DNA of 5,258 bases from Caldifarciminota bacterium. Its GTDB lineage: Bacteria > WOR-3 > Hydrothermia > UBA1063 > CAJXJZ01. Shown one piece after another: positions 251 to 5,211 of the stretch. The notes under the pieces were generated by a model, which was given only the letters and a program-made list of their open reading frames with translations, did no database searches and was not told the DNA's origin. The stretch's first letter is position 1. The number at the start of each line of letters is the position of its first letter. A program made the translations under genes and the position numbers. The stretch spans positions 1-5,258 of the forward strand of contig JALTEL010000649.1 of the NCBI GenBank assembly GCA_027073945.1. Direction: 5' to 3'.

Positions 251-361
251 ACTATTTCACTTTTACCCCGCCTGTCCTGTTGAAATTCATTCCAATGAAA
301 AGCGAAGCTCATTTCACCGGGGTAGGTCTGGGAGATCGTACTGGGGCTCATTTCACCGGGG
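251..361 (+). repeat. Intergenic repeat module with two copies of GCTCATTTCACCGGGG
   Basis: This stretch starts with CTATTTCACTTTT (252-264), a phrase that recurs at 2054-2066 and 5181-5193 and, with one change, at 5119-5131. It continues with CCTGTTGAAAT, then an exact 16-bp direct repeat at 307-322 and 346-361. The parts resemble the CCCTGTTAAAT and ATTTAACCGGGG pieces at 1942-2047, so this is probably a diverged copy of the same module. The rest of the 223-507 gap holds an A-rich stretch near 417-433 and no plausible gene. Confidence 0.6.
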
Positions 362-1138: not shown

Positions 1139-1333
1139 ATGAAAACAATTCAAACTGAAGTGCCGGAGCAACTTTATAGAAAAGCCCAGATGCTGGTTAA
1201 AGAGGGGTGGTTTCGAGACGAACAGGACATTTTCTCTGAAGCCATACGTCGCTTCTTGGATGCGCATCGTTCCGATCTGATGGAGAAGTTTGTTCGTAAG
1301 GACGTGGAATGGGGCCTTCATGGACAAGACTAA
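1139..1333 (+). CDS. Ribbon-helix-helix antitoxin of a PIN-toxin pair
   Basis: This is a 64-residue protein. It has a short N-terminal strand (KTIQTEVP, residues 2-9), a first helix (about 10-22) and a second helix (DEQDIFSEAIRRFLDAH, about 27-43), the layout of a CopG/MetJ-type ribbon-helix-helix repressor. The tail ends KDVEWGLHGQD. Similar short proteins with a xDVEWGL tail are paired with PIN (DUF3368) toxins, from memory. The fold binds its own promoter as a dimer and the tail would hold the toxin. The start is supported by a GGGGGG run at 1125-1130, eight bases before the ATG. Its stop codon lies inside the toxin gene, a 14-base overlap that suggests coupled translation. A promoter in the A-rich leader is possible (TTGTAA at 1081-1086, TACATA at 1103-1108) but weak. 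Confidence 0.8.
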   Translation: MKTIQTEVPEQLYRKAQMLVKEGWFRDEQDIFSEAIRRFLDAHRSDLMEKFVRKDVEWGLHGQD

Positions 1334-1841
1334 AGAAACAAATTCAGTCGTATGTGATGCCGGTCCCATCATACACCTTGATGAACTTGGCCGCCTTCAC
1401 TTGCTTGTCGATTTTCAGAAAATTTTCTTGTCCGATACCGTTTGGGAAGAAATAGATCAGTATCGTCCGTCTGCTTTAAAAAGAAAGGACCTGTTCCTAA
1501 TTCGATCGCGTGGCGTAGTTCCTTCTAATGAAACACTTCTCACAATGTGTAGAGTATTTTCTCTCGATGCGGGAGAAATCGAGGCGCTTGCTCTTATGGA
1601 ACAAATACCTCAAGCAATGTTTCTTACCGATGATGCCGCTGCTCGGCTGGTTGCTGAACAAATGGCGTTCAATGTTCATGGAACAATCGGTATCCTTATC
1701 AGATCTATACGCCGAGGGCAGATGAGTCCCAAAGAAGTTCTGGACGTCCTTACAGAGCTTCCACGGAAATCTACCTTATATATAAGGCATTCTCTATTAC
1801 AGGAGATTTTACTCCGCATCAAGAATGAGTTTAATCTTTGA
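1320..1841 (+). CDS. PIN-domain toxin (DUF3368, VapC-like ribonuclease)
   Basis: The 173-residue product is a probable Mg2+-dependent endoribonuclease of the PIN superfamily. The acidic residues expected of the active site are present: D13 in VVCDAGPI, E43/E44 in SDTVWEEI, E86 in LDAGEIEALAL and D104/D105 in FLTDDAAAR. The following GTIGILIRSIRRGQMSP is typical of the DUF3368 branch. Length is normal and nothing looks broken. I chose the ATG at 1320 because it gives a short lead into the first PIN strand and has a GGGG run (1311-1314) five bases upstream; a TTG at 1290 is also in frame. It overlaps the antitoxin gene by 14 bases, the usual antitoxin-first order. VapC enzymes often cut tRNA or rRNA; the target here cannot be told. 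Confidence 0.85.
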   Translation: MDKTKETNSVVCDAGPIIHLDELGRLHLLVDFQKIFLSDTVWEEIDQYRPSALKRKDLFLIRSRGVVPSNETLLTMCRVFSLDAGEIEALALMEQIPQAMFLTDDAAARLVAEQMAFNVHGTIGILIRSIRRGQMSPKEVLDVLTELPRKSTLYIRHSLLQEILLRIKNEFNL

Positions 1842-2394: not shown

Positions 2395-3663
2395 ATGCGT
2401 AATAAAATAATAAAAAGAAATATTTTTGAAGAGCTCAAGGAACACCTGCATAAGAAGGAAATATCTCTGATCGTTGGACCGCGACAGGTTGGTAAGACAA
2501 CAATGATGCTTTTTCTTGAGCAGGAGCTAAAGCGGCAAGGAGCGGCGACCTTTTTTTTAAACCTCGATCGTGAAATGGACAAGAAATATTTTGCAACACA
2601 GGAGGATTTGATTAAGAAGATTCACCTGGAGTTTGGCCATCAAAGAGGATACGTTTTTATTGATGAAATTCAGCGAAAGGAAAATGCCGGGTTATACTTG
2701 AAGGGGATTTCTGACTCCAACCTCCCATATAAATTCGTTGTTTCTGGCTCAGGTAGTCTGGAATTAAAAGAGAAAATACACGAATCGTTGGTGGGCAGAA
2801 AAAAGATCTTCGAATTGTGGCCCGTATCCTTTGGTGAATTTGTCAATTTTAGAACGGAAAATCAGTATGAAGACAGGCTAAGAGATTTCTTTGAAATTGA
2901 GATTGAGAAAAGAGAGTCCCTGCTACGGGAATACTTAAACTTTGGTGGATATCCACGGGTTATTCTGGCCGAGCAAGAAACTGAAAAACGGGAAATTATC
3001 GATGAGATATTTCATAGCTACCTTGAAAAAGATATCTCATATTTGTTAAAGGTGGAAAAGATTGACGCGTTTTTTAATCTTGTAAGAATACTTTCATCAC
3101 AATTGGGTCGGCTCGTGAATTATTCAAGGATTGCCGGGGAGCTAAATATTTCTATAAAAACGTTAAAAAACTATCTGTGGTATGGAGAAAAAACCTTTGT
3201 TTTCCAGAAATTGACGCCATACTTTAAGAATGTGAGAAAAGAAATTGTTAAATCCCCCGTGTATTATTTCTATGATCTTGGGTTACGGAATTATAGTATT
3301 GGAAGATTCGGGGGATTGGTGGAATACGGACCCGTTTTTGAGAATTTTATCTTGAATATCATTAAGGAGCGAATACGATGGAGCGGATCAACGGTGCATT
3401 TCTGGCGGACAAAGGATAAGGCGGAAGTTGACTTTGTGATTAACGTGGGCGAAGCAATAATTCCCATAGAGGTGAAATACAGAAAATTGACCCGACCTTC
3501 CATTGAGAGATCGATGCGGAGTTTTATAGATAAATATACCCCTAAGAAAGCTTTCGTTATTAATCTGACATTGAATAAAACAATAAAAATCGGAAAAACG
3601 GAGGTAATCTTTATCCCATTTTGGGAAGCTATTCATTCAGATCCCTTCGAAAGAAAAGGCTGA
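2395..3663 (+). CDS. AAA_14/DUF4143-family ATPase
   Basis: This is a full-length, 422-residue member of the archaeal/bacterial AAA_14 ATPase family with a DUF4143 tail. The Walker A motif is GPRQVGKTT at residues 28-36 (K34). Walker B is YVFIDEIQ at 86-93 (D90, E91). VVSGSGS at 115-121 fits the sensor position, and GRKKIFEL at 134-141 holds a likely arginine finger (R135). A winged-helix-like segment follows (VNYSRIAGELNISIKTLKNY, 241-260). The C-terminal part has AEVDFVI (343-349) and IPIEVKYR (356-363), the D-(E)xK layout of a restriction-endonuclease-like fold (D346, E359, K361). No signal peptide or membrane helix is present, so it is cytoplasmic. Such proteins are common in bacteria and archaea, but their task is poorly known. 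It stands alone between repeat-rich gaps. ATG 2395 fits the family N-terminus and the promoter. Confidence 0.9.
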   Translation: MRNKIIKRNIFEELKEHLHKKEISLIVGPRQVGKTTMMLFLEQELKRQGAATFFLNLDREMDKKYFATQEDLIKKIHLEFGHQRGYVFIDEIQRKENAGLYLKGISDSNLPYKFVVSGSGSLELKEKIHESLVGRKKIFELWPVSFGEFVNFRTENQYEDRLRDFFEIEIEKRESLLREYLNFGGYPRVILAEQETEKREIIDEIFHSYLEKDISYLLKVEKIDAFFNLVRILSSQLGRLVNYSRIAGELNISIKTLKNYLWYGEKTFVFQKLTPYFKNVRKEIVKSPVYYFYDLGLRNYSIGRFGGLVEYGPVFENFILNIIKERIRWSGSTVHFWRTKDKAEVDFVINVGEAIIPIEVKYRKLTRPSIERSMRSFIDKYTPKKAFVINLTLNKTIKIGKTEVIFIPFWEAIHSDPFERKG

Positions 3664-3718: not shown

Positions 3719-3799
3719 CAACTCGTGAGAGGATCAGGAAAATTCAAAAATATATAAATCCGTTGAAACGGAAATGGCGGTAGCCTGCGCTTTTTTGAT
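3719..3799 (+). other. Leader with hairpins and a T-run (possible attenuator or small RNA)
   Basis: After the promoter at 3685-3712 comes a stretch that codes for nothing obvious. A 5-bp hairpin (TCCGT-TGAA-ACGGA) lies at 3759-3772. A GC-rich segment, GGCGGTAGCCTGCGC at 3776-3790, can fold as GGC/GCC or as GGCG/CGCT, and is followed by six Ts at 3791-3796. Together they resemble a weak intrinsic terminator. Transcription stopping there would give an RNA of about 80 nt; read-through would express the gene at 3826. I could not match it to a known riboswitch class. Confidence 0.35.
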
Positions 3800-3825
3800 T
3801 TTTGATTCGAAAGGGGTAACTTATA

Positions 3826-4176: not shown

Positions 4177-4251
4177 CATTCACATTTTACATTTCACAGG
4201 GGAATCACAGATCACGGCTTAACCTTGAACGTTGAACATTGAACCTTGATT
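4177..4251 (+). repeat. Heptamer arrays between the orphan gene and mntA
   Basis: CATTCAC, ATTTTAC and ATTTCAC run from 4177 to 4197. After a short break, AATCACA, GATCACG, GCTTAAC, CTTGAAC, GTTGAAC, ATTGAAC and CTTGATT run in strict 7-bp steps from 4203 to 4251. The stretch 4183-4215 matches 5058-5090, on the other side of the mntA-hepT genes, in 31 of 33 bases. Confidence 0.85.
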
Positions 4252-4312: not shown

Positions 4313-4319
4313 AAGGAGG
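4313..4319 (+). promoter_or_regulatory. Ribosome binding site of mntA (AAGGAGG)
   Basis: AAGGAGG is a near-perfect Shine-Dalgarno sequence seven bases before the ATG at 4327. It fixes that start firmly, even though the reading frame breaks 50 codons later. A candidate promoter upstream (TTGCTT 4275-4280, TATCCT 4298-4303) is weak. Confidence 0.8.
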
Positions 4320-4326
4320 CGGAAAC

Positions 4327-4631
4327 ATGGAAAAACAGGCATTTTATTCGGCTGGTGAGATCGTCGAATTTTTAAGAAATCATAAAAAAATAACATACCA
4401 AAAATATGGGGTAGTTAAAATTGGTATCTTCGGAAGTCGCGTAAAGAGAAAAGAGAAAGTGATCTCGATATCCTGATAGAAATGAGTAAAGAGAAGAAAA
4501 ATCTCCATAACTTCCTTGAATTTAGAAGATTCCTTGAGAAAAACCTTGGGTTGCGTGTTGACCTTGGGATAGAAAGCGCACTTAAGCCTATGGTAAAAGA
4601 ATCAATCAAGAATGAGCTTGTCTATGTCTGA
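4327..4631 (+). pseudogene. mntA: MntA-type nucleotidyltransferase antitoxin, frame broken at a 7-bp repeat
   Basis: From ATG 4327 the protein reads 49 residues, through YGVVKIGIFGSRVKR (GS at residues 36-37), and stops at 4474-4476. From about 4458 another frame continues as SDLDILIEM, then FRRFLEKNLGLRVDLGIE, to a TGA at 4629-4631. Together these form a minimal nucleotidyltransferase. MntA adds AMP groups to its partner HepT and so silences it; catalysis needs the GSX10DXD motif, here GS on one side of the break and DLD on the other. The break coincides with two tandem copies of AAAGAGA. A third copy would restore frame, give exactly ten residues between GS and DLD, and a 103-residue protein. 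As sequenced no active enzyme can be made without frameshifting. A base error in assembly is the main alternative. The end overlaps hepT by 8 bases. Confidence 0.85.
4443..4456 (+). repeat. Tandem heptamer AAAGAGA x2 inside mntA
   Basis: AAAGAGA occupies 4443-4449 and again 4450-4456, followed by AAG. Adding or losing one unit moves the reading frame by one base. The present number (two) leaves mntA out of frame, while three would put it in frame with family-perfect motif spacing. Confidence 0.85.
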
Positions 4632-4968
4632 TAGGGGTCTAAAGCTTTATCTGTATGATATCCTGGATTCTGGAAAGGCGATTGAGGAATATATCAAAGA
4701 TTTTTCTTATGAGCAGTTTGTAAATGATAGAAAAACTGTTTCAGCTACTTTAAGGGAATTTGAAATAATAGGCGAAGCAATTGGGAAGCTTCCAGATTCT
4801 CTAAAAAAACAATATCCGGAAGTTTATTGGCAAGACATAAAAGACTTTAGAAATTTACTCATTCACGAATATTTCGGGGTAGATCTTGAAATAGTCTGGA
4901 AAACAGTAAAAGAGGACTTGCCTTTATTAATTGATGTGGTCTCTAAAATACTCGAAAGCGAAAAATAA
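4624..4968 (+). CDS. hepT: HepT-type HEPN ribonuclease toxin (DUF86)
   Basis: This 114-residue all-helical protein is a HEPN/DUF86 toxin, the RNase partner of MntA. The catalytic motif RX4HXY is intact as RNLLIHEY (R76, H81, Y83); the tyrosine is the residue that MntA AMPylates in the characterised pair. Other family features are the ATLREFEIIGEAIGKLP helix (41-57), the PEVYWQDIKDFRN run and the HEYFGVD segment. Length is normal. I prefer ATG 4624, which overlaps the mntA stop and begins MSDRGLKLYLYDI as relatives do; ATG 4612 would add four residues. No strong ribosome binding site is seen, so translation probably depends on ribosomes finishing mntA. The mntA reading frame now ends about 150 bases upstream, which should reduce hepT translation, a possible reason why an intact toxin is tolerated beside a broken antitoxin. 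Confidence 0.9.
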   Translation: MSDRGLKLYLYDILDSGKAIEEYIKDFSYEQFVNDRKTVSATLREFEIIGEAIGKLPDSLKKQYPEVYWQDIKDFRNLLIHEYFGVDLEIVWKTVKEDLPLLIDVVSKILESEK

Positions 4969-5014
4969 TGGGGCTTTCAAAATCCCTGCTTATGAAAAGC
5001 ATGACAGATTTTCC

Positions 5015-5111
5015 TTAAAACTTAACCACTTAAAACTTAATAACTTTTGACATTTAACATTTTACATTTCACAAGGAAATCACAGATCACTCGTCACAGA
5101 TTACGCATTAC
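5015..5111 (+). repeat. Heptamer array after hepT (TAAAACT and TYAC families)
   Basis: TTAAAACTTA occurs at 5015-5024 and 5030-5039. Then TAATAAC, TTTTGAC, ATTTAAC, ATTTTAC and ATTTCAC run in 7-bp steps from 5038 to 5072. After four bases AAATCAC, AGATCAC, TCGTCAC, AGATTAC and GCATTAC run from 5077 to 5111. Just before, at 4987-5001, TGCTT/AAGCA can form a 5-bp hairpin with no adjacent T-run, a poor terminator. Confidence 0.85.
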
Positions 5112-5211
5112 TCCCTCGCTATCTCACTTTTGAACTTTGAACTTTGAACGTTGAACCTAGTTTTCTCTCTCGCTCCCTCGCTATTTCACTTTTGGGCTTA
5201 GAACATTGAAC
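5111..5211 (+). repeat. Paired CTCCCTCGCT blocks with GAAC heptamers
   Basis: A 21-base block starting CTCCCTCGCTAT and ending TCACTTTT occurs at 5111-5131 and 5173-5193 with a single difference. Each is followed by GAAC heptamers: TTTGAAC three times and GTTGAAC (5129-5156) after the first; TTAGAAC and ATTGAAC (5198-5211) after the second. The unit appears to be duplicated as a whole. Confidence 0.75.

Follow-up and report, generated by a model that had tools for sequence, protein, structure and literature searches.

The window, that is, the whole 5258-nt stretch of DNA that was analyzed, harbors a toxin–antitoxin module in which the antitoxin gene mntA is split between two reading frames and is followed by an intact gene for the HEPN toxin, hepT (Table 1). 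The HepT sequence matched the Pfam family PF01934 with 97.1 bits against a cutoff of 23.5, and its RX4HXY motif was present in 120 of the 120 HepT homologs listed from a total of 2725, the window's own protein included. The 3' piece of mntA matched PF01909 over positions 4461–4628 with 26.9 bits against a cutoff of 21, and the 5' piece by itself did not match this Pfam family. An earlier note on this DNA had named the broken gene as an MntA antitoxin; the HEPN/MNT type was borne out by the Pfam match of the 3' piece and by the similarity of both pieces to the MntA relative P0001, described below.

Table 1. Positions of the module and of other features in the window
Feature	Position	Strand	Description
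GCTCATTTCACCGGGG, two copies	307..361		at 307 and 346, upstream of a DUF2283 gene
ribbon-helix-helix-like and DUF3368/PIN-like genes	1139..1841		possibly a second toxin–antitoxin module
AAA_14/DUF4143 ATPase gene	2395..3663		
mntA ribosome-binding site	4313..4319	+	AAGGAGG, strong, read directly
mntA 5' piece	4327..4476	+	49 aa, from ATG 4327 to TGA 4474–4476, carries the GS half of the motif at the active site
mntA 3' piece	4419..4631	+	second frame, DXD half and C terminus, stop at 4629–4631
heptamer tract	4443..4458	+	2.3 units of AAAGAGA in the GS-to-DXD linker, where the frame breaks
hepT	4624..4968	+	intact HEPN toxin gene, 114 aa, RX4HXY = RNLLIHEY
hepT start/mntA stop overlap	4624..4631	+	8 nt

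The frame of the 5' piece closes at the premature TGA, an ATG in the second frame follows 5 nt later at 4482, and the second frame remains open over its whole span with no further stop. The distance from the premature mntA stop to the hepT start is 147 nt. The 8-nt overlap of the two genes was identical in 52 of the 66 related loci in which both genes are intact, and the predicted RNA structure near the hepT start was no more stable than that of shuffled sequences (z 1.09). The intact hepT beside a broken mntA, the 8-nt overlap, and the pervasive intergenic 7-nt repeats described below had not figured in the earlier note.

Class I HEPN/MNT modules pair an RX4HXY toxin with a GSX10DXD antitoxin, and changes in GS or DXD abolish HepT modification, according to the accessible part of PMC7641770. 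By Pfam and motif, the toxin of the window belongs to this class, and a PF01909 gene adjoins and overlaps hepT; the antitoxin as sequenced does not show GSX10DXD. The HepT/MntA pair of Shewanella oneidensis (SO_3166/SO_3165), as far as the same part of PMC7641770 describes it, likewise consists of a PF01934 toxin with RX4HXY and a PF01909 antitoxin encoded by neighboring genes, whereas in the window the antitoxin frame is broken and the NCBIfam scores lie below cutoff. For the NCBIfam equivalogs (NF047752 and NF047751, cutoff 60), P0001 as a stand-in for the antitoxin scored 31.8 and HepT scored 35.4, and the mntA 3' piece alone gave no equivalog match. Because these cutoffs were missed, we place the module, by its profile scores, on a divergent branch of Class I HEPN/MNT. 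NCBIfam calls the HepT/MntA system type VII.

Other genes of the window, and the relative P0001, were compared with Pfam and PADLOC families. The ribbon-helix-helix-like and DUF3368/PIN-like genes had Pfam E values of 1.9e-4 and 9.5e-5, both below cutoffs, and the DUF3368/PIN-like gene matched PDC-S70 with 84 bits. The AAA_14/DUF4143 ATPase matched the candidate family PDC-S01 with 276 bits, and the MntA relative P0001 matched the candidate family PDC-S09 with 98.5 bits.

The seven-base deficit in the catalytic linker

The earlier note had placed the frame break at two perfect AAAGAGA units between GS and DXD, and this was confirmed, with the two units at 4443–4456 and the exact period extending to 4458, in codons 39–44 of mntA. 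GS and DXD therefore stand in different frames, and GSX10DXD within one reading frame was not found. The closest MntA relatives, P0001 with 81% identity and P0002–P0007 with 65–71%, are metagenomic proteins of the same family and length with intact ORFs; P0003 and the toxin P0056, each on a 1199-nt contig, are probably an intact pair, judging from that size alone.

Alignment with MntA relatives had been proposed earlier as a check, and it revealed that one seven-base period is missing. Residues 11–52 of P0001 aligned with the 5' piece at 83% identity over 42 aa, up to GSRVKRKEK, and P0001 aligned with the 3' piece at 83% identity over 66 aa, from RKEK..ESDLD onward. RKEK occurs once in P0001, and both frames of the window align to that single RKEK; in the window, KEK is read at 4450–4458 in one frame and at 4443–4451 in the other, 7 nt apart. 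Since one RKEK of P0001 is matched from DNA positions 7 nt apart, the window gene is one period short. The P0001 linker, RVKRKEKKES, is near-identical to that of the window, with K where the second frame of the window has R.

The spacing GSX10DXD was present in all 53 retrieved MntA proteins, drawn from a database of predicted ORFs in which broken alleles are under-represented, and in all 75 readable mntA genes of related genomes; no other linker length was found among these proteins or genes. These counts, together with the 7-nt offset of KEK, uphold the claim of the earlier note that one missing repeat length would restore the spacing of the family. Because the X10 linker is shared by all sampled relatives, the change is placed in the lineage of the window. 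That the window mntA is one seven-base period short is thus well supported. Elsewhere the module is well preserved, with no deviation at 30 conserved columns of MntA and one at 51 conserved columns of HepT.

The coincidence of frame and spacing had also been described as unlikely by chance. The mntA tract was the sole perfect period-7 duplication lying wholly within the seven segments taken as coding, and a Markov-1 model predicted 0.03 period-7 runs of its length per 3416 nt of coding sequence (500 simulations). Single copies of AAAGAGA were mildly frequent in the window (6 against 2.46 expected; 6 of 200 shuffles reached 6). Random synonymous codings of the P0001 linker contained a period-7 run of at least 9 in 2.0% of cases and of at least 7 in 3.6%; for the P0003 linker, the values were 0.4% and 1.2%, and for the linkers of two other relatives, such a run appeared in none of 50,000 codings. 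As the K/R/E-rich P0001 linker yields such a run at that rate, the tract can be a by-product of the peptide. The improbability is therefore smaller than was implied in the earlier note.

Heptamer arrays and the state of related loci

Seven-base periodicity is a general property of the intergenic DNA in the window. Identity at lag 7 was 0.381 between genes, compared to 0.234–0.341 at other lags up to 13, and the signal rose again at lags 14, 21, and 28; in coding sequence, the value at lag 7 was 0.250. Tandem Repeats Finder listed ten intergenic period-7 rows, two of them overlapping, and a single coding one, the mntA tract. Period-7 repeats whose unit varies (GAACATA, CCTTTAG, CACTGAT, AACCTTG, CTTAAAA, TAACATT, and TTTGAAC) fill the intergenic segments 2072–2251, 3792–3807, 4179–4249, and 5014–5156. 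Several such units in runs of at least 18 bp, or the TTGAACNTTGAAC motif, were also seen in the related loci L002, L006, L008, L013, L016, L035, and L069.

According to the accessible parts of PMC4692102 and PMC4679880, many bacteria contain an excess of heptanucleotide repeats, and the polymerase has been proposed to slip at 7 nt. In the light of this proposed slippage and of the intergenic periodicity, a seven-base slip in mntA fits the habit of this DNA. The intergenic heptamers of Xanthomonas, Nostoc, and Beggiatoaceae described in those parts (PMC4692102, PMC4679880) resemble the window in forming many period-7 arrays between genes, whereas the units of the window differ (GAACATA, TTTGAAC, and others) and the mntA tract is coding. 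PMC5084427 yielded nothing on heptamers.

The related loci were taken from the best 80 of 102 relatives, which gave 79 distinct loci. By apparent type, 31 were deltaproteobacterial, 23 campylobacterotal, 8 from Nitrospirae, 5 betaproteobacterial, 2 from Nitrospinae, and 10 others. A gene was counted as intact when one open frame covered nearly the whole profile. The 75 readable mntA genes come from 74 of these loci, with two contributed by L069; loci lacking a readable mntA were L032 and L033 (contig edge), L054 and L078 (no match above 40 bits), and L065 (broken).

Both genes were intact in 66 of the 79 loci, in a set that was anchored on hepT and hence favors intact toxins. An intact mntA next to a hepT damaged by a stop, a frameshift, or a truncation was present in seven (L028, L030, L040, L041, L058, L073, and L077). 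The other loci comprised one intact mntA whose toxin gene lies at a contig edge, two intact toxins with an edge-cut antitoxin, two loci with both genes partial (L065 and L078), and one partial toxin without an adjoining antitoxin. None of the 79 related loci combined a broken mntA and an intact hepT, two being undecidable at contig edges. In L065 (5716–5983), mntA is also split in the GS-to-DXD linker, without heptamers, and the adjoining hepT is cut at residue 71.

Breakage of mntA next to an intact hepT thus looks disfavored, and loss of the toxin first may perhaps be the usual decay route of the module. That the state of the window was seen in none of the related loci makes it more likely that the sequence is in error or that only some members of the population carry this allele. 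The window could therefore reflect either a very recent break, an allele in part of the population, an error, or a toxin held down by other means.

Searches for nearer relatives covered several collections and brought up no genome close to that of the window. The best HepT identity to the window among the 79 loci, from the best 80 of 102 relatives, was 70%. A P0001 query against 395 genomes of one phylum reached at best 52% identity, and against 198 genomes of another it gave no matches at a strict 1e-29, a result that shows little; a HepT query against 77 genomes of a third phylum gave two matches at 1e-42, with 70% and 68% identity. Viral contigs contained 92 and 52 stretches fitting the peptide patterns, none of which encodes a relative of MntA or HepT, and no match to the back-translated linker pattern. 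Among plasmids, one record matched, covering 12% of the query. In the PDB, the MNT profile matched 11 sequences, including 1wot and 5yep, and the HepT profile had no match at 0.001.

Origin and consequences of the frame break

We favor, with a probability of roughly 0.6, the view that a HepT/MntA-like Class I HEPN/MNT module underwent a single, recent contraction through strand slippage. Direct observation showed that a period is missing in comparison with every relative examined, that the toxin frame is intact, and that the genes overlap, and the following sequence of events would account for this. Slipped-strand deletion would have removed one seven-base period from the A/G-rich heptamer tract in the GS-to-DXD linker, and the resulting frameshift would leave neither mntA piece with both halves of the nucleotidyltransferase site. 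MntA activity would then be lost, and the locus should no longer supply AMPylation of HepT. Translation would end well upstream of hepT, and because the hepT start overlaps the mntA stop, toxin translation is probably lowered too. A different MNT protein of the cell may take over in trans, since 8 of the 10 relatives' genomes searched hold more than one MNT-like match (range 1–6); such a substitute is not a given, as the other 2 of the 10 hold a single one. The break is most likely recent because no further stop has accumulated, both pieces retain equal identity to P0001, and MntA deviates at none of its conserved columns.

A consensus or assembly error, in which the gene in the cell is one period longer and the contig has lost it, is an unlikely explanation, although one that deserves to be weighed. 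The awkward pairing of a disrupted mntA and an intact hepT, unmatched in the related loci apart from the two undecidable ones, would be explained by it, both mntA pieces look fully conserved, and the window is a lone contig. However, sequencing errors commonly take the form of 1-nt homopolymer indels and not of 7-nt losses. With one more period, the exact repeat in the tract would span only ~16 nt, which is shorter than the usual k-mers of assemblers and far shorter than reads, and the largest other gene, that for AAA_14/DUF4143, is full length. It is very improbable that the module as a whole decayed longer ago and that the toxin is dead because its expression was lost. Damaged toxins beside an intact mntA in 7 of 79 related loci, and the breakage of both genes in L065, indicate that such modules do decay, but the near-complete conservation of HepT (a deviation at just 1 of 51 columns) and of MntA (0 of 30) argues against age. 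We find it hardly credible that ribosomal frameshifting or a restart at ATG 4482 yields a functional antitoxin from the two-unit allele. The tract is A-rich and the ATG is close behind the premature stop, but a canonical slippery heptamer was not seen in the tract by eye, a -1 shift would yield an X8 spacing that occurs in 0 of 53 proteins, and a product started at 4482 would lack both GS and DXD.

A change in heptamer number could also toggle the AMPylating antitoxin reversibly, as the earlier note had suggested, and the overlapping toxin gene would be co-silenced when the antitoxin is off. The 7-nt unit length is not divisible by 3, the tract lies inside an ORF at the frame break, the window differs from the family frame by exactly one period and holds many heptamer arrays, and the overlap of the genes could co-regulate the toxin. 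We nevertheless consider such a switch quite improbable. Only 2.3 units remain, and two repeat units are a low number for phase variation. The longest period-7 run was 5 in the 75 related linkers, compared to 9 in the window; a heptamer repeat occurred in none of them, and X10 was the only linker length, which leaves switching by copy number unsupported. When the 49-aa truncated form was used as query, only the window's own copy was returned, in a weak test with one candidate past the word filter, and no second truncated allele emerged from it. The tract is also located mid-gene, where repeats are cited as suppressed (accessible part of PMC4692102).

Phase variation is tied to hypermutable repeat numbers in the portion available of a review (PMC11868660). 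The phase-variable genes with simple sequence repeats covered there (PMC11868660) share with the window a repeat unit not divisible by 3 within an ORF, whereas the window has 2.3 units in a tract unshared by sampled relatives and no allelic variation was seen. The accessible part of PMC6211672 deals with phase-variable methylases, and no literature was found on a toxin–antitoxin module switched by heptamer slippage, in a survey that covered mainly freely available papers. A slow contingency switch, in which losing a unit abolishes the active site of the antitoxin and at the same time cuts toxin synthesis via the overlap, would allow reversible silencing without killing the cell, and we hold it to be quite improbable. 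If true, slippage by 7 nt would gate a toxin–antitoxin module in a heptamer-rich genome.

Selection should act against the loss of an antitoxin next to an intact toxin. If the one-off contraction is real, the locus would provide a natural experiment on how cells cope with a HEPN toxin that lacks its AMPylator, whether by translational coupling, by rescue through another MNT protein, or because the toxin is weak. It would indicate that heptamer slippage, which is common between genes in the window, can also hit a catalytic linker, and were the change reversible, a toxin–antitoxin module would be switched in an unusual manner.
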